A DNA stretch of 64,000 bases from Thiosulfatihalobacter marinus (GTDB lineage: Bacteria > Pseudomonadota > Alphaproteobacteria > Rhodobacterales > Rhodobacteraceae): positions 124,001 to 188,000 of the forward strand of contig NZ_JAECRZ010000005.1 in the NCBI RefSeq assembly GCF_016019955.1, written 5' to 3'. Shown here in pieces: positions 4,369 through 23,756 of the stretch. A program made the position numbers and the translations under genes. The notes under the pieces are model-generated. The model saw only the letters and a list, made by a program, of their open reading frames with translations. It did not search any database and was not told the origin of the DNA. Position 1 is the stretch's first letter. Each line of letters opens with the position of its first letter.

Positions 4369-5667
4369 ATGGAGAACAGTGTCTGGCAGGACGATGTGCT
4401 GGTGATCGGTGGTGGCACGGCGGGGTTTGGCGCGGCGGTCGCGGCCGGGCGGCTGGGGCTGGATGTGTGTCTGATCGAGGCCACGGGCAAGGTGGGCGGT
4501 GTGATGGCGTTTTGTCCGGGGATGCCCTGGGGCGCGGCCTTTCCTGATGACCGGATTATCGGAGGCATCCTGGAGGAACTGGCCGGACGGCTGTTTGCCA
4601 TGGTGCCCCCGGCGGCGGAGAAGCGGCCTTGTGCGCTGGAGAATTTCGGGCCGGAAATCCTGTATGACCATGATCTGGCGACGCTGGTCATGTTCGAGAT
4701 GCTGGAAGAGGCCGGGGTGCGGGTGCATCTTCATACCATGGCGCTGGCGCCGCATATGGAGGGGCGCCGGGTGGCGGCGGTTGATCTGTGCGACCGGCAT
4801 GGGGTGCGTCGGATCGCGGCCCGGATGGTGATCGATTGTTCGGGGGACGGTGACATCGCGGCCCGCGCCGGGGTGCCCTATACGCTGGGGGATGAGGCGG
4901 GCAGGCTGATGGGGGTGACGCTGAGTTTCCATATGCTGGGTGCGGATTGGGCGCGGGTTTTTGCCGGGGGGGATCCCTATTTCACCCGCCATGCCGCACG
5001 CGGCATTGCCCAGGGGCGTCTGCATCCCGATCTGGCGCAGCTTTATCTGATGAAGGGGTTTCATCGCGACACGGTGTTTTGCAACTCGGTGGTGATCCGC
5101 GATGTCGATGGCACCGATGCGGCGGCGGTCGCGGCGGCAACGCAGGAGGGGCGGCGGCGTTGCCGGCAACTCGCCGGGTTCCTGCGCAGCGATGTGCCGG
5201 GGTTCGAAGCCGCGCGGATGGCCTTTCTGGGGCCAAGCGTGGGGGTGCGCGAAACCCGCAAGCTGGAGGGGATGTACCGGGTGACGGGCGCCGATCTGGC
5301 GGCGGCGACCAAGTTCGAGGACGGGATCGTGTGTTGTGACAATCCGATTGACGATGTGATGCGCGGCGCGGCGATGACCCATGCGGCGATGGTCGGGCAG
5401 GGGGAGTATTACACGATCCCGTTCCGGTCGCTGGTGCCGCGCGGGATCGGGAACCTGATGTTTGCCGGGCGGCTGATCTGTGCCGATCCGGTGGCCTTTG
5501 CCAGCGTGCGCGGGATGCCGCAATGCATGGCGATGGGGCAGGCCGTGGGCACGGCGGCGGCGCTGGCGTTGCGGCGCGGTGTTGCGGTGCAGGATGTGGA
5601 CCGGGGGGTGTTGGTGGCGGCGTTGCAGGAGCAGGGTGTGCGTGGCCTTGGCGGTGTGCCCTTGTAG
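4369..5667 (+). CDS. FAD-dependent oxidoreductase
   Basis: A 432-residue flavoprotein with an N-terminal Rossmann FAD-binding fold (VLVIGGGTAGFGAAVAAGRL, then an acidic LIEATGKVGG turn) and a C-terminal GNLMFAGRLICADPVAFASV segment that normally closes the FAD site. It fits the FAD_oxidored (FAD-dependent dehydrogenase) superfamily; the substrate is not evident. The ATG at 4369 is preceded by AGGGGGTGAG. It lies on the plus strand, against the surrounding ribosomal cluster, between trmD and rplS where most bacteria have no gene. Its stop is 3 bases from the trmD stop, so the two are convergent. It looks like an insertion into the operon, although its base composition matches the neighbours. 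Confidence 0.78.
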   Translation: MENSVWQDDVLVIGGGTAGFGAAVAAGRLGLDVCLIEATGKVGGVMAFCPGMPWGAAFPDDRIIGGILEELAGRLFAMVPPAAEKRPCALENFGPEILYDHDLATLVMFEMLEEAGVRVHLHTMALAPHMEGRRVAAVDLCDRHGVRRIAARMVIDCSGDGDIAARAGVPYTLGDEAGRLMGVTLSFHMLGADWARVFAGGDPYFTRHAARGIAQGRLHPDLAQLYLMKGFHRDTVFCNSVVIRDVDGTDAAAVAAATQEGRRRCRQLAGFLRSDVPGFEAARMAFLGPSVGVRETRKLEGMYRVTGADLAAATKFEDGIVCCDNPIDDVMRGAAMTHAAMVGQGEYYTIPFRSLVPRGIGNLMFAGRLICADPVAFASVRGMPQCMAMGQAVGTAAALALRRGVAVQDVDRGVLVAALQEQGVRGLGGVPL

Positions 5668-17912: not shown

Positions 17913-18254
17913 TCAGGATTCGGGGGGATCGCGCAGTTCCGTTTCCAGAAACCGCTCGAACGCGTCGAGATTGACCGGTTCGAACTGACCGAACCCCTGC
18001 ATCCACACGCTGGCGGCGCGCAGCGCGTCCGGTTCGAGCTTGCACCATTTAACCCGGCCGCGCTTTTCCTGGGAGATCAGCCCGGCGCGGGAGAGGATCG
18101 CGAGATGCTTGGAGATCGCGGCGAGCGAGATGTCGAAAGGGTCTGCCACATCTGTCACCGCCATGTCGTCTTCGAGCAGCATGGTCAGGATCGCGCGGCG
18201 TGTGGGATCGGCCAGCGCGGCAAAGACAGTATCAAGGGCAGATGTATCGGTCAC
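17913..18254 (-). CDS. ArsR family transcriptional regulator
   Basis: A 113-residue winged-helix repressor. VFAALADPTRRAILTMLLED starts the HTH and DISLAAISKHLAILSRAGLI is the recognition region, followed by the GRVKWCKLEP wing. Metal-binding cysteine pairs of true ArsR are absent, so it is probably of the metal-independent branch often paired with SRPBCC or oxidoreductase genes. Translation starts at GTG (18252-18254). A palindrome lies just upstream, suggesting autoregulation. Its target is not obvious; the next gene in its direction is the convergent DMT exporter. Confidence 0.88.
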   Translation of the reverse strand: MTDTSALDTVFAALADPTRRAILTMLLEDDMAVTDVADPFDISLAAISKHLAILSRAGLISQEKRGRVKWCKLEPDALRAASVWMQGFGQFEPVNLDAFERFLETELRDPPES

Positions 18255-18256
18255 AG

Positions 18257-18272
18257 TTTCGCCTAAGCGAAA
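18257..18272. promoter_or_regulatory. Palindrome upstream of arsR, candidate operator
   Basis: TTTCGCCTAAGCGAAA: 6-bp arms TTTCGC/GCGAAA around CTAA, ending 3 bases before the arsR GTG start. A repressor bound here would block its own transcription or initiation. Confidence 0.5.
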
Positions 18273-18328
18273 AGGGGCGGCGCGGTCAAGTCGCCGCGCC
18301 CAACCCCGGTATCACAAGACAGGTATCT

Positions 18329-19201
18329 TCAGAAGTTCAGCACCTTGTAGCCGACCTGAACCGACCAGTCCGCCGGAGCATCGCCGCCAAACAGGACACC
18401 TGGTTTGATGAAAACCTGTCCGTCGCCACCAAATGCCCGGCCAGTCAGCATGCCAAATGTGACCTGAAGGCTGCCAAAGGTGTCGTTGTTTTCCCAGTCA
18501 TGAATGATGGCTGGGTCAAACGTCATGTAATATTTGGAATTGGCCAGCTTGGGGACATAGTAGAAATCGACTGTGGTGGTGTTGACATCTACGCCGCTGC
18601 TGTTGCCGCCTTCCAGGCCGAATGTCTGAACCCAGGCCGGTGCAAAGATCGACCCGTTGTCGAGGAACCACGCGTAAAACAGCGTCGTTTCCATTGCGTA
18701 TTGGCCGTACCCGGACGTGGCCGTTTCCGCGGTGTCTAGGAACAACTCTGCGGTGAACGCCGCGCCGTTCCTTTCCGTCAGGTGAAACACGTCGATATAG
18801 GTCAGGCTGATGTCGCCCAGGCGCATTTCGTCTCCGCCGAGCCCTGTTGCGCTGTTGGCACCGGAGGGGCCGCCGAAATTGGGGGCGCGGTTGAAGGGGC
18901 TGTCGGACACGGGCAGCGTAAAGCGAAAAGCCTTGCTGCCGTCGCCAATGGGCTTGGTGTAGAACAGCTCCAAAAGGCCGGTATTCAGCGTCGAATTGAT
19001 CTGGTTGTATTGATACTGCATCCCCATTTGCGTGGTGAGCAGGGTCGGGTTGGTCCCGTTGTTGATCTCTTCCACGGCCTCCTGAACCTGGTTCAGGTTA
19101 GAGCCGTCCTGGGCGTTGGCTGTGGGGACAATCGCCATGTAAACCGACAAGGCGACGGCAAGGTTGGTCAGGGTCGCCAAGAGTGACGGAAGCTTTTTCA
19201 C
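18329..19201 (-). CDS. Putative outer-membrane beta-barrel protein
   Basis: A 290-residue exported protein not clearly assigned to a named family. The GTG start (19199-19201, GGAG seven bases upstream) gives a signal peptide KKLPSLLATLTNLAVALSVY to TANAQ with cleavage before DGSNL. The mature part has alternating hydrophobic/polar strands rich in aromatics (LELFYTKPIGDGSKAFRFTL, YAWFLDNGSIFAPAWVQTFG) and ends SVQVGYKVLNF; a terminal Phe is the usual C-terminal sorting signal of outer-membrane barrels. The layout resembles the MetA-pathway phenol degradation / transporter barrel group. It lies 138 bases after the amidohydrolase gene, same strand, and both look less GC-rich than the surroundings by eye. 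Confidence 0.65.
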   Translation of the reverse strand: MKKLPSLLATLTNLAVALSVYMAIVPTANAQDGSNLNQVQEAVEEINNGTNPTLLTTQMGMQYQYNQINSTLNTGLLELFYTKPIGDGSKAFRFTLPVSDSPFNRAPNFGGPSGANSATGLGGDEMRLGDISLTYIDVFHLTERNGAAFTAELFLDTAETATSGYGQYAMETTLFYAWFLDNGSIFAPAWVQTFGLEGGNSSGVDVNTTTVDFYYVPKLANSKYYMTFDPAIIHDWENNDTFGSLQVTFGMLTGRAFGGDGQVFIKPGVLFGGDAPADWSVQVGYKVLNF

Positions 19202-19339
19202 TTTGGTCTCCAGAGATGGAAATGCACCTTGGGAACTGGCCAAGGGCGCGAAATGGCTGAAGGCGTGCGCCGTGGCGTGCGGGAACGTACCGTACGCAAT
19301 ATCGCGCCGCAACCATGGTGGCCGCGCCGCGATCAGGAT

Positions 19340-20257
19340 TTAGTCAAGCGCGGTCTTGTAGATCACGCCGTCCTTCATGATCAGGTCGAAATTGCCATGC
19401 GGATCCGCGAGCAGATTGATATTTTCCAGCGGATTGCCGTTTACGAGGATCAGATCGGCATAGGCGCCTTCCGCGATCACGCCCAGCGGGCCCTGTTGAT
19501 ACGGGTGGCGCGGGCCGGAGAGGGCCAGCAATTCGGCGTTGGTCGAGGTGGCCATCTTCAGGATCTCGAATGGCGTATACCAGCGTTGCAGCTTGGCGAG
19601 GAAGGCTCCCTGTCGTTCAGCCAGCCTGGGGTCGAACAGGATGTCGGTGCCAAAAGCGACTTTCACGCCGATCTCCTTGGCCAGCGTATAGGTCTGGTCC
19701 GTTCCATTGGTGACATCGATCCATTTCTGCTGGCTGGTTGGATCGTCAAAGGAAAAACCGTCTTCGTCATCCAAAAGCGGCTGTACCGACAGCCAGACAT
19801 CGAATTCCTTCATCATTTCCATTGTTTCGCGACTCATCAGGAAGCCGTGTTCGACAGACTTGATGCCGGCCTTGATCGCTGTCTGCACGGCGGCATCGGA
19901 AAACAGGTGCGAGGCGACATAGGTGTTGTAAGTCTCGGCCACTTCGACAAAGGCCTTCAGTTCCTCAAACGTGTATTGGCTGACATCCAGCGGGTCATAG
20001 ACAGAGGACACGCCGCCGCCACCGGAGATCTTGAGCTGGGTGGCGCCCATGCGCATGACCTCGCGGGATCGCTTGATCACATCTGGTACGCCGTCGGCCA
20101 TTGCCATGAGACCGGTTGCGTACCAGTACCACTGGCTGTCGCCCGGGTTGGTGGGCACGGATTGATAGGGACGATAGTCGAAATGGCCACCGGTCTGGCC
20201 AATGGGTGGACCCGAGGGCAGGATTCGCGGGCCGATCAGTTCGCCGGCGTCGATCAT
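19340..20257 (-). CDS. Amidohydrolase, C-terminal part (after -1 frameshift)
   Basis: 305 residues covering the rest of an imidazolonepropionase-like metal-dependent hydrolase. It begins MIDAGELIGPRILPSGPPIG, which in homologues is mid-protein. It carries the metal-bridging Lys candidate (GATQLKISGGGG), the zinc-ligand His residues in YVASHLFSDA and KSVEHGFLMS, and the catalytic Asp in VAFGTDILFD. Its ATG overlaps the stop of the N-terminal part (ATGA). On its own it lacks the HxH metal site, so it can be active only if fused to, or assembled with, the upstream product. Substrate unknown; relatives include dipeptidases and ochratoxin- or organophosphate-type hydrolases. Confidence 0.75.
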   Translation of the reverse strand: MIDAGELIGPRILPSGPPIGQTGGHFDYRPYQSVPTNPGDSQWYWYATGLMAMADGVPDVIKRSREVMRMGATQLKISGGGGVSSVYDPLDVSQYTFEELKAFVEVAETYNTYVASHLFSDAAVQTAIKAGIKSVEHGFLMSRETMEMMKEFDVWLSVQPLLDDEDGFSFDDPTSQQKWIDVTNGTDQTYTLAKEIGVKVAFGTDILFDPRLAERQGAFLAKLQRWYTPFEILKMATSTNAELLALSGPRHPYQQGPLGVIAEGAYADLILVNGNPLENINLLADPHGNFDLIMKDGVIYKTALD

Positions 20258-20691
20258 TTTTTTCGTGGCAAAGGGTTGCCGCCCACGTCGCGCACCGAGG
20301 TAAAGCCCCGCATCAAGGTGGCCTCGGCCCCTTTGGCACCACGGATGGCGACTTCCAGAATGTCACCCGTCACCACGGTGCTTTGGGCGGTGCAGCAATA
20401 CGAGACATGCCAGTGTACATCGATCAGACCGGGTATCATCGTGCGCCCGCCACCATCGATCACGGTGGCGCCCGCGACGGCCAGCGGCTCTGTCGAGATG
20501 GCGCTGATAAGGTTGCCTGTGACCACGACATTCGCATTCTCGATCATGGTTTCGTTCACGCCGTCGAATACGTTGACGTTGGTGAACAGCGTCGGCAGAT
20601 CCTCGGCGGCGTGGGCGCCCGACGCAAATAGCGCGGCCGCGGCAATTCCGGCGCTGGCGGTTCTTCCGAGAGAATGGAAAAGCGAAGACAT
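20254..20691 (-). CDS. Amidohydrolase, N-terminal part (exported)
   Basis: 145 residues starting MSSLFHSLGRTASAGIAAAA, a signal peptide with probable cleavage after GAHAA. AAGGAG lies eight bases before the ATG at 20691. The mature part holds the small beta-sandwich (NVNVFDGVNETMIENANVVV) and GLIDVHWHV with the HxH metal ligands, then GFTSVRDVGGNPLPRKK and a TGA stop. Alignment from memory to this family continues without a gap into the downstream frame if the ribosome slips -1 on the A7 run. Together the parts span 19340-20691, full family length, with all expected metal ligands. Confidence 0.75.
   Translation of the reverse strand: MSSLFHSLGRTASAGIAAAALFASGAHAAEDLPTLFTNVNVFDGVNETMIENANVVVTGNLISAISTEPLAVAGATVIDGGGRTMIPGLIDVHWHVSYCCTAQSTVVTGDILEVAIRGAKGAEATLMRGFTSVRDVGGNPLPRKK
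20257..20263 (-). other. A7 slippery site between the amidohydrolase frames
   Basis: On the minus strand the codons are CGA AAA AAA TGA. A -1 slip on A AAA AAA changes the next codon to ATG and restores ...RKKMIDAGEL, which matches the spacing of homologues. One A more in the genome would give the same result. No strong downstream stem-loop was recognised. Confidence 0.6.
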
Positions 20692-21174
20692 GAATTGGCT
20701 CCTTGTCGTGATCTTGTCGCGTCCGGCATGAACCGGCAATGAATGTCTGGTCAACAGCTGGCCGGGAAAGGCCGGGCGGTTTGCGAAAGTTCGTTTCCCT
20801 TACCGAACATCCGAACCTGTGCATCCGAACCCGTGCGGGTTCTGGTTTGCATCAAGGGCGGTGTCCCGGACGGCTTGGGAACGCGTTAATTGCGTGACAG
20901 TGCCAAATGGCGTTCAGCGACGCAACCGTTGCCAGCGTGACAACAAGGCTGGCGTGGCGTCACGCGAACAAGATTCAACCGGATCGTTGAATATGGGAAA
21001 TCAGCGCAAATCGGCCCCGGGCACCCTGCGACGGAATCTCCCCTGCGGTGGATGGGCGCTTTTTTATGAATTTTTTCAGAAGGTTGGCGCGCCGTATGTG
21101 GCTCTGTCTTGCGCATTGACTCGGGGCTTTGCGCACCGTAGCAATGCGCCAACGTCAGCAGGGGGCAATCGCGC
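20692..21174. other. 483-base intergenic region upstream of atpI
   Basis: No gene is supported here. It contains several small inverted repeats: GAACCCG/CGGGTTC (20827-20842) and ATTCAAC/GTTGAAT (20973-20992). A T-rich stretch lies near 21060-21077, followed by the candidate atp promoter. It must also carry the amidohydrolase promoter on the minus strand. Confidence 0.6.
21116..21144 (+). promoter_or_regulatory. Candidate promoter of the F0 ATP synthase operon
   Basis: TTGACT (21116-21121) and TAGCAA (21139-21144) are spaced by 17 bases, about 30 bases before the atpI start. Confidence 0.45.
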
Positions 21175-21504
21175 GTGACCGACCCGGACCAGAAAGATCG
21201 CATGAAGCGTCTGGAGGACCGGATCGAGGCGGCCCGCAAGGCCCAGGCCCCGACGCCCCGCGTTGACGAGCACTATTCGGCGGCCAATCTGGCCTGGCGC
21301 ATGGTGATTGAACTGGTGGCCGGTCTTGGGATCGGTTTTGGCATCGGATACGGGCTGGACCTGCTGTTTGGCACCCTGCCCATCCTGATGGTGCTGTTTA
21401 CAATGCTGGGTCTGGCCGCGGGTATCAAGACGATGCTGCGCAGCGCCAAGGAGATCCAGGACGCACAAGCGGCCGAGGCGGCCGGGAAAAATGAGAGGGA
21501 TTGA
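21175..21504 (+). CDS. atpI: ATP synthase accessory protein AtpI
   Basis: A 109-residue membrane protein with two helices ([20 protein letters not shown] and [20 protein letters not shown]) behind a charged N terminus. AtpI helps assemble the c-ring and is the usual first gene of the alphaproteobacterial F0 operon. It starts at GTG, with a GGGGG stretch upstream; an internal ATG at 21202 is possible. Its stop lies 2 bases before the proposed atpB start. Confidence 0.88.
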
Positions 21505-21506
21505 AC

Positions 21507-22250
21507 GTGGCAGTCGATAAAAGCGGTCTGGTTTTCAAGCCGATGGATCAGTTCGTCGTGAAGCCCCTTTTTGGTGGTGATCATGTTGGCTTGTTCACCG
21601 TCACCAACGTGACATTCTGGATGGCGCTGGCCGTGGTTGCCGTTGTCGCCATGATGGTGCTGGGCACCCGGCGCCGCGCGATCGTGCCAAGCCGTGGTCA
21701 GTCCGTCGCGGAACTGGCCTATGGCTTTATCTACAAGATGGTCGAGGACGTGGCCGGCAAGGATGCGGTCAAGTTCTTTCCCTACGTGATGACGCTGTTC
21801 ATGTTCATCGTCATGGCCAACTTCCTTGGCCTGTTGCCGATGTCGTTCACGACCACGTCGCAATTCGCGGTGACGGTGGTTCTGGCGCTGATGGTGTTCG
21901 TGACGGTGACAGTCGTTGGGTTCGTCAAGAACGGCACCGCGTTCCTGGGTCTGTTCTGGGTGACGAGCGCGCCGCTGGCGCTGCGTCCGGTCCTGGCGAT
22001 CATCGAACTGATTTCCTATTTTGTCCGCCCGGTCAGCCATTCCATTCGTCTTGCGGGCAACCTGATGGCGGGCCATGCGGTGGTCAAGGTGTTCGCGGGC
22101 TTTGCCGCGATTGCCGCTGTCAGCCCGATTTCGGTGGTGGCTATCACCGCGATGCTTGGGCTGGAGACCCTGGTGGCCTTTATCCAGGCCTACGTGTTCA
22201 CGATCCTGACCTGTGTTTATCTGAAGGACGCATTGCATCCGTCGCACTAA
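21507..22250 (+). CDS. atpB: F0 ATP synthase subunit a
   Basis: A 247-residue integral membrane protein forming the proton half-channels. The essential helix contains [20 protein letters not shown], with the Arg that faces the c-ring carboxylate, and the last helix reads [27 protein letters not shown] place the start at GTG 21507 (AGAGGGA seven bases upstream) rather than TTG 21501, which overlaps the atpI stop. The F1 genes are not in this window; the F0/F1 split is normal for the group. Confidence 0.95.
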
Positions 22251-22254
22251 GGGC

Positions 22255-22274
22255 GGTGCGTGACATCACGCACC
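22255..22274. repeat. REP-like palindrome between atpB and atpE
   Basis: GGTGCGTGACATCACGCACC, a 9-bp perfect inverted repeat with CA centre, starting 5 bases after the atpB stop and followed by CTACC. It can fold in mRNA between atpB and atpE. Similar GTGCGTGA...TCACGCAC palindromes are, as far as I recall, dispersed in Rhodobacteraceae genomes. Confidence 0.65.
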
Positions 22275-22336
22275 CTACCGCAGGTCGCAACCTCATCACT
22301 TTGAATTCCAACTTCCAATCGTAAGGAGATACCCCA

Positions 22337-22561
22337 ATGGAAGGTCAACTCGCACATATCGGCGCAGGTCTCGCAGCAATCGGTTCGGGCGCAGCCGCAA
22401 TCGGTGTGGGCAACGTGGCAGGCAACTACCTGGCCGGCGCCCTGCGCAACCCCTCGGCAGCTGCTTCGCAGACCGCCACCCTGTTCATCGGTATCGCATT
22501 CGCGGAAGCACTGGGCATCTTCTCGTTCCTGGTCGCACTTCTGCTGATGTTCGCTGTATAA
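22337..22561 (+). CDS. atpE: F0 ATP synthase subunit c
   Basis: A 74-residue hairpin protein; 10 or more copies form the rotor ring. Helix 1 carries the Gly-rich [21 protein letters not shown] motif region, the polar loop is LRNPSA, and helix 2 ([20 protein letters not shown]) has the proton-carrying Glu. AAGGAG stands just upstream. It is bracketed by a palindrome before and a stem-loop after, which could raise its transcript level relative to a and b. Confidence 0.97.
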
Positions 22562-22587
22562 GCCTTACTGAACTTGTATCCTTACGG

Positions 22588-22615
22588 CCGGGTGGTGGTG
22601 TAATCCCCCACCCGG
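22588..22615 (+). other. Stem-loop downstream of atpE
   Basis: CCGGGTGG (22588-22595) pairs with CCACCCGG (22608-22615) across a 12-base loop. No U-run follows. It is probably an mRNA-stabilising or partial attenuation structure. Confidence 0.5.
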
Positions 22616-22645
22616 TGTAACCGGAAGTTCACGAAGGAGGGCGCC

Positions 22646-23191
22646 ATGGCGACCGACATCACAAAGGTTTCAAGCCACAACGCTGAAGCCGCCGCCTCTG
22701 CACCGGGCATGCCGCAGCTCGATTTCTCGAACTGGGGCAACCAGATTTTCTGGCTTCTGATCACGCTGGTCGTGATCTACCTTGTCCTGTCGCGCATTGC
22801 GCTGCCGCGCATCGCCGCCGTTCTGGCCGAGCGCCAGGGGACCATCACGAATGATATTGCCGCAGCCGAAGAGCTGAAGGCGAAGGCTGTCGAAGCTGAA
22901 GACGCCTATAACAAGGCTCTGGCCGAGGCGCGCGCCGAGGCGCAGCGGATCGTGGCCGAGGCCAAGGCCGAGATCCAGGCTGATCTGGATGCGGCGACCG
23001 AAAAGGCCGACGCAGAGATTTCCGCCAAAGCCGCCGAATCGGAGAAGGCAATTTCGGAAATCCGTGCCGGTGCGCTGGAAAGCATCAAGGACGTGGCCAA
23101 CGACACGGCCGTTGCTCTTGTGGCTGCTCTGGGAACCCAGGCGAAAGAAGCCGACGTGACCAAAGCCGTCGCCACACGGATGAAAGGGTAA
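22646..23191 (+). CDS. atpF': F0 ATP synthase subunit b'
   Basis: A 181-residue peripheral stalk subunit: one membrane helix ([20 protein letters not shown]) followed by a long charged coiled coil rich in Ala, Glu and Lys. It forms a heterodimer with subunit b, an arrangement seen in photosynthetic and related alphaproteobacteria. AAGGAGG precedes the ATG. It is separated from atpF by only 4 bases. Confidence 0.94.
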
Positions 23192-23195
23192 GCCA

Positions 23196-23756
23196 ATGCG
23201 CAAACTGACGACAGTCGCCGCCCTGCTGGCCGCCAGCCCGGCCTTTGCCGCGCCCGGCACGCCGTTCTTTTCGCTGAAGAACACCGATTTCATCGTGGTG
23301 CTGGCGTTCCTGCTGTTCATCGCGGTGCTGGTCTATTTCAAGGTCCCCAGCTTGCTGGCCGGAATGCTGGACAAGCGTGCGGAAGGCATTCAGTCGGACC
23401 TGGACGAGGCGCGCGCGCTGCGTGAGGAGGCCCAGACCGTTCTGGCGTCCTATGAGCGCAAGCAAAAGGAAGTGCAGGAACAGGCCGATCGCATCGTTGA
23501 ACATGCCAAGGCCGAAGCCGCCACCGCTGCCGAACTGGCCAAGGCGGACCTGGCCAAGTCCATCGCGCGCCGTCTGGCCGCGGCGGAAGACCAGATCGCT
23601 TCTGCCCAGGCCGCCGCGGTCAAGGAAGTACGCGATCAGGCTATCGTGGTTGCCATCGGTGCGGCCCGGGATGTGATCGCCAAGCAGATGACGGCAGCCG
23701 ATGCCAACAAGCTGATCGAGGCGGGCATTTCCGAAGCCGACGCCAAACTGCACTGA
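23196..23756 (+). CDS. atpF: F0 ATP synthase subunit b
   Basis: A 186-residue stalk subunit. A cleavable signal-like N terminus ([20 protein letters not shown]) precedes the membrane helix [17 protein letters not shown], then a coiled coil reaching F1. The signal-like leader is typical of alphaproteobacterial b subunits. It is the last gene of the operon and is followed by a strong terminator. Confidence 0.94.

Follow-up and report, generated by a model that had tools for sequence, protein, structure and literature searches.

A probable one-base deletion upstream of an A7 run splits an exported amidohydrolase gene in Thiosulfatihalobacter marinus

In the 64,000-nt stretch of Thiosulfatihalobacter marinus DNA analysed here (hereafter the window), the gene for an exported amidohydrolase is interrupted by a change of reading frame, which is very probably due to a one-base deletion confined to this sequence, the gene having either been inactivated very recently or been deposited with a sequence error. 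The alignments with homologues show where the break lies, that one base is missing, and that the relatives examined do not share the break; the missing base itself may stem from a real mutation or from a sequence error. In the proposed course of events, one base would have been lost at about 20270-20275, the ribosome would then read six codons off the family frame and stop at the TGA that follows the A's, and most likely no working full-length enzyme would be made. The gene would then be either a fresh pseudogene of this strain or one in whose deposited sequence an indel error was made. As such, a one-base indel in a gene of this kind is ordinary.

The initial annotation had described two overlapping ORFs, with a signal-peptide start and an HxH motif in the first, together with a CGA AAA AAA TGA junction containing seven A's and an overlap of the TGA stop with the next ATG, all of which were confirmed in the sequence, the signal-peptide-like start being judged by eye (Table 1). 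The C-terminal ORF as listed occupies 19340-20257 of the minus strand, and its ATG overlaps the stop of the N-terminal ORF in the four letters ATGA. At the junction, the N-terminal frame reads VRDVGGNPLPRKK and then stops, and the C-terminal frame, read upstream of its ATG, gives RQPFATKKMIDAGE. In the latter frame, PFATKKMIDAG was found to begin upstream of the supposed start, and this is the sequence that homologues carry after VRDVGGN. Since both translations match consecutive parts of one family, the two ORFs can be regarded as one split gene, and on these alignments chance is ruled out.

Table 1 Features of the broken amidohydrolase gene, with positions counted from the first letter of the window
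Feature	Positions	Strand	Remarks
N-terminal ORF, broken amidohydrolase	20254-20691	-	Signal-peptide-like start, HxH (HWH), VRDVGGN; last six codons PLPRKK off the family frame
Frame-parting site	20270-20275	-	One base short relative to 27 of 27 orthologues; exact position within short runs ambiguous
A7 run	20257-20263	-	Read in the downstream frame as Lys-Lys and the first letter of an internal Met codon
C-terminal part as read in its own frame (FATKKMIDAG to the stop)	19340-20272	-	Lys, His, His, and Asp aligned with PDB 3feq

With respect to family identity, the N-terminal part matched positions 1-59 of the Pfam profile Amidohydro_1 (PF01979) with 24.9 bits, just 0.1 short of the cut-off of 25, and the C-terminal part matched positions 76-343 with 76.7 bits (cut-off 25). 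The top model for both parts was NCBIfam NF051886, Xaa-Pro dipeptidase (positions 7-107 with 57.6 bits and 119-398 with 154 bits, respectively); both scores lie far beneath the cut-off of this model (500 bits), and membership of this narrower family is not claimed. Moreover, residues 7-111 of PDB 3feq matched the N-terminal part and residues 119-409 the C-terminal part, with the HWH of the former and the Lys, His, EHG, and FGTD of the latter aligned with this structure. The HxH, Lys, His, His, and Asp are the metal ligands, and the prolidase-like amidohydrolases 3feq/3n2c and 3mkv carry the label COG1228. These are the closest solved structures to both parts, with the metal-ligand positions kept, but the window gene differs from them in its export-signal-like start and in its frame break. 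The intact gene would encode an exported, metal-dependent, prolidase-like amidohydrolase of about 450 residues.

Homologous loci were collected solely from close relatives, using peptide patterns, and from the best 30 places across 25 genomes of the genus, with one genome sampled per species. From the resulting 105 loci, two of the own genome and five partial matches (L082, 84%; L101, 75%; L085, 65%; L097, 58%; L104, 36%) were set aside, and 98 were read. Three of the partial matches (L082, L085, and L101) had at least 59% identity and did not reach the junction; L101 and L085 start only past it, at the end of a contig or close to one. Six duplicates were present within the 98 (L042, L072, L083, L086, L091, and L092); from about 100 residues upstream of the C-terminal part to the end of the gene, L003 was identical to L042, L004 to L083, L005 to L086, and L006 to L092. 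These pairs link genomes of the same genus to named records, namely G002 to Shimia aestuarii (L004 and L083), G001 to Shimia abyssi (L006 and L092), and G022 and G023 to uncultured Shimia (L003 and L042, L005 and L086), which makes Shimia, or the group in which GTDB places it, the probable genus. All 39 homologues that had at least 59% identity and reached the junction (38 distinct, L042 being included) read straight across it, HxH site and junction sharing one frame, and none of them was split at the window site. Among the rows below 50% identity, 16 were without HxH by a simple pattern; of three of these that were inspected, L018 is truncated by the edge of the locus, L029 has its N- and C-terminal parts in one frame, and L011 is broken, at a site other than that of the window.

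The position of the break was given by a DNA alignment of the junction with 27 orthologues of at least 68% identity (26 distinct, L042 again being included), in which the window row contained a single gap just before TTTGCC. The window was one base shorter than every one of these orthologues, 7-12 bases upstream of the A7 run, and across the 141 columns of the alignment no other indel was seen, nor any column with an orthologue gap opposite a window base. The protein alignment was in agreement with this placement. In the 39 homologues, all of which carry GGN, the seven residues that follow were, in order, P (24), S (9), T (4), A (1), or V (1); F (38) or L (1); A (30) or S (9); T (18), I (14), V (4), or L (3); K (36), H (2), or A (1); K (32) or R (7); and M (28), L (6), or A (5). 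Frame 0 of the window fits the family up to GGN and one proline, and reads P-L-P-R where the homologues mostly have [PST]-F-[AS]-[TIVL]. As the downstream frame fits the family from F onward, upstream of the A's, the two frames part at the site given in Table 1 and not at the A7 run.

These results bear on several claims of the initial annotation. It had placed the frame change at the A7 run, which is contradicted by the family sequence F-A-T-K-K-M being already in the downstream frame upstream of the run. Its suggestion that one base is missing, through recent loss or through an error of sequencing, was supported, but not the homopolymer as the site of the missing base. It had also taken a -1 slip at the run to restore the expected spacing after VRDVGGN; the length of the slip product would indeed match the family, yet its sequence would have Leu-Pro-Arg in place of Phe-Ala-Thr, and neither Pro nor Arg was present there in any of the 39 homologues. 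Eight A's, which it had suggested looking for in homologues, were found at none of the 39 junctions with at least 59% identity.

The A7 run itself, in the downstream frame, is read within Thr-Lys-Lys-Met. Lys-Lys-Met was present in 20 of the 39 homologues, encoded with AAG AAG in 14, with mixed codons in five, and with the same A7 in one (L046, an unbroken gene). In the long ORFs of the contig, Lys was encoded by AAA 504 times and by AAG 771 times, and in its predicted genes AAA AAA accounted for 5 of 72 Lys-Lys pairs, with A7 occurring twice in 206,184 nt. The run is uncommon, yet it needs no special explanation, and it is probably a bystander of the break.

Programmed slippage, ribosomal (-1) or transcriptional, on A7 would yield the full-length enzyme, and the slippery heptamer A_AAA_AAA does stand in the 0 frame, in the right phase and directly before TGA. 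One paper lists A_AAA_AAA among the commonest motifs in insertion sequences, with A_AA.A_AA.G or A_AA.A_AA.A making up 72% of the heptamers in IS1 and IS3 family elements (PMC4066793). Nevertheless, this explanation, which the initial annotation had also offered, is very improbable, since neither the run nor the split, whose conservation it had proposed to check, is conserved: A7 occurred in one of the 39 homologues, in which the gene is unbroken, and the split in none. In addition, the 83- and 58-nt stretches downstream folded no better than their shuffles (z 0.41 and 1.13), giving no indication of a nested structure, and the L-P-R of the slip product would replace F (38 of 39), A or S (39 of 39), and T, I, V, or L (39 of 39). 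The same paper reports that the three best heptamers (ending in A_AA.G) reached about 0.3% without a stimulator in E. coli, rising to no more than 3.7% when the 3' context was altered (PMC4066793). Furthermore, the length at which selection against A or T runs appears is described as variable, a large share of genomes having it at nine (PMC1088944), which likewise speaks against programmed slippage. A related possibility is an accidental partial rescue, in which an upstream deletion broke the gene and the nearby A7 lets a few ribosomes or transcripts slip back. The phase of the heptamer is right for this too, and frame correction on oligo-A is known for the chloroplast atpB of Oenothera, where an A run likewise lies near a one-base indel (PMC8254509, available text). 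In Oenothera, however, the indel lies inside a tract of 11 A's and the full-length product was detected, whereas in the window it lies outside a tract of seven A's and is seen in the sequence alone; moreover, with deletions of one or two bases, the residual activity in an E. coli reporter was about 5% according to the same text (PMC8254509). The sequence arguments against programmed slippage apply here as well, and the rescue is considered improbable.

A pair of coupled polypeptides acting as a split enzyme, also put forward in the initial annotation, would account for TGA overlapping ATG, an arrangement often seen where genes are coupled. However, the ATG taken as the downstream start corresponds to an internal Met codon in 28 of the 39 homologues, all of which run through it, so the overlap needs no selection. 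With none of the 39 split at the site, and with a signal-peptide-like start on the N-terminal part and none on the C-terminal part, which would direct the two products to different compartments, the probability of a split enzyme is next to nil. A one-base deletion confined to this sequence also has points against it. The gene shows no further decay, which a long-dead gene should show; the slippery heptamer, a common one in insertion sequences (PMC4066793), is in the right phase; and three changed residues do not prove the slip product inactive.

As for decay, among the columns in which the other 27 rows do not vary, the window departed at one of 32 in the N-terminal part and at one of 123 in the C-terminal part, within the range of the orthologues' own departures (0 to 7 and 0 to 11, respectively). 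With the two parts kept separate in this comparison with 27 other rows, no decay was seen besides the frame break. The nearest sequence to the N-terminal part was L044 (dN 0.196, dS 1.09) and the nearest to the C-terminal part was L032 (dN 0.099, dS 0.95), and because the closest orthologues are this distant, with a synonymous distance of about 1, a recent loss could not show as decay. The junction region had one match in the own genome (66 contigs), as did the C-terminal part at E 1e-30.

The reliability of the assembly was assessed by comparing 228 kb of the own contig with 280 kb of a relative from the genus (G002). With our own gene predictor, one of the 92 G002 genes with a counterpart was flagged as split, a case that was also one of six flags raised in a crude first run and that was interpreted as an ORF extended upstream, its first part lying opposite a longer ORF on the other strand; frameshifts were accordingly counted in none of the 92, a result still compatible with a rate near 3%. 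In the reverse direction, five splits were flagged in four of 88 own genes (flags as raised). In the crude run, 6 of the 211 G002 ORFs covered had seemed split in the own contig, with 8 splits among 227 in reverse (again flags as raised). In five of these six, a longer ORF overlaps an antisense, shadow, or extended one, and the sixth was antisense to the atpI/atpB ORFs, so that these six flags are probably not real frameshifts. The comparison with G002 weakly favours a genuine mutation over a sequence error. Antonov et al. 2013 expect sequencing errors, not indel mutations, to underlie unclustered frameshifts validated by BLASTp; where BLASTp and Pfam both give confirmation, they expect either a working gene with a sequencing error or a pseudogene with an indel (PMC3711429). 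The window gene resembles the singleton frameshifted prokaryotic genes described there in having a homology-supported frame transition that is absent from the relatives examined, with no difference of note (PMC3711429).

If the loss is real, the strain would be left without any close copy of this exported hydrolase. Should slippage at the A7 run, improbably, make up for the deletion by chance, the broken gene would still yield a full-length enzyme with slight changes. A frame break next to a homopolymer is not necessarily caused by it; what decides is which frame agrees with the family in the residues immediately before the homopolymer. The importance of the case beyond annotation is little.

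Several other irregular loci were met among the relatives. In a relative from the genus (G024), a homologue at 1060-1560 of L011 has its N-terminal part in another frame than its C-terminal part, at a different place. One of the 39 homologues, at 4641-5010 of L063 (Pseudoruegeria aquimaris), is broken upstream of HxH, passing from frame 1 to frame 3 at about 4800-4815, a site that differs from that of the window. In L097 (Zhouia amylolytica, 5300-5480), the junction is in one frame and a C-terminal frame change lies at about 5381-5396. In L082, a Rhodobacteraceae MAG, the 84% match starts only at residue 92 of the C-terminal part (about 5001), and the 5 kb upstream are present but non-matching, so this locus may be rearranged or wrongly assembled. 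With regard to the neighbourhood, in which only genes with a clean translation are reliable, the amidohydrolase adjoins ATP synthase genes and an ArsR-like gene in the window (17913-23756) as well as in L033 and L038, the loci of Shimia biformata and Falsiruegeria mediterranea (neighbour names read by eye). Upstream of the gene, at 20808-20836 of the window, a 14-base unit is repeated 2.1 times.
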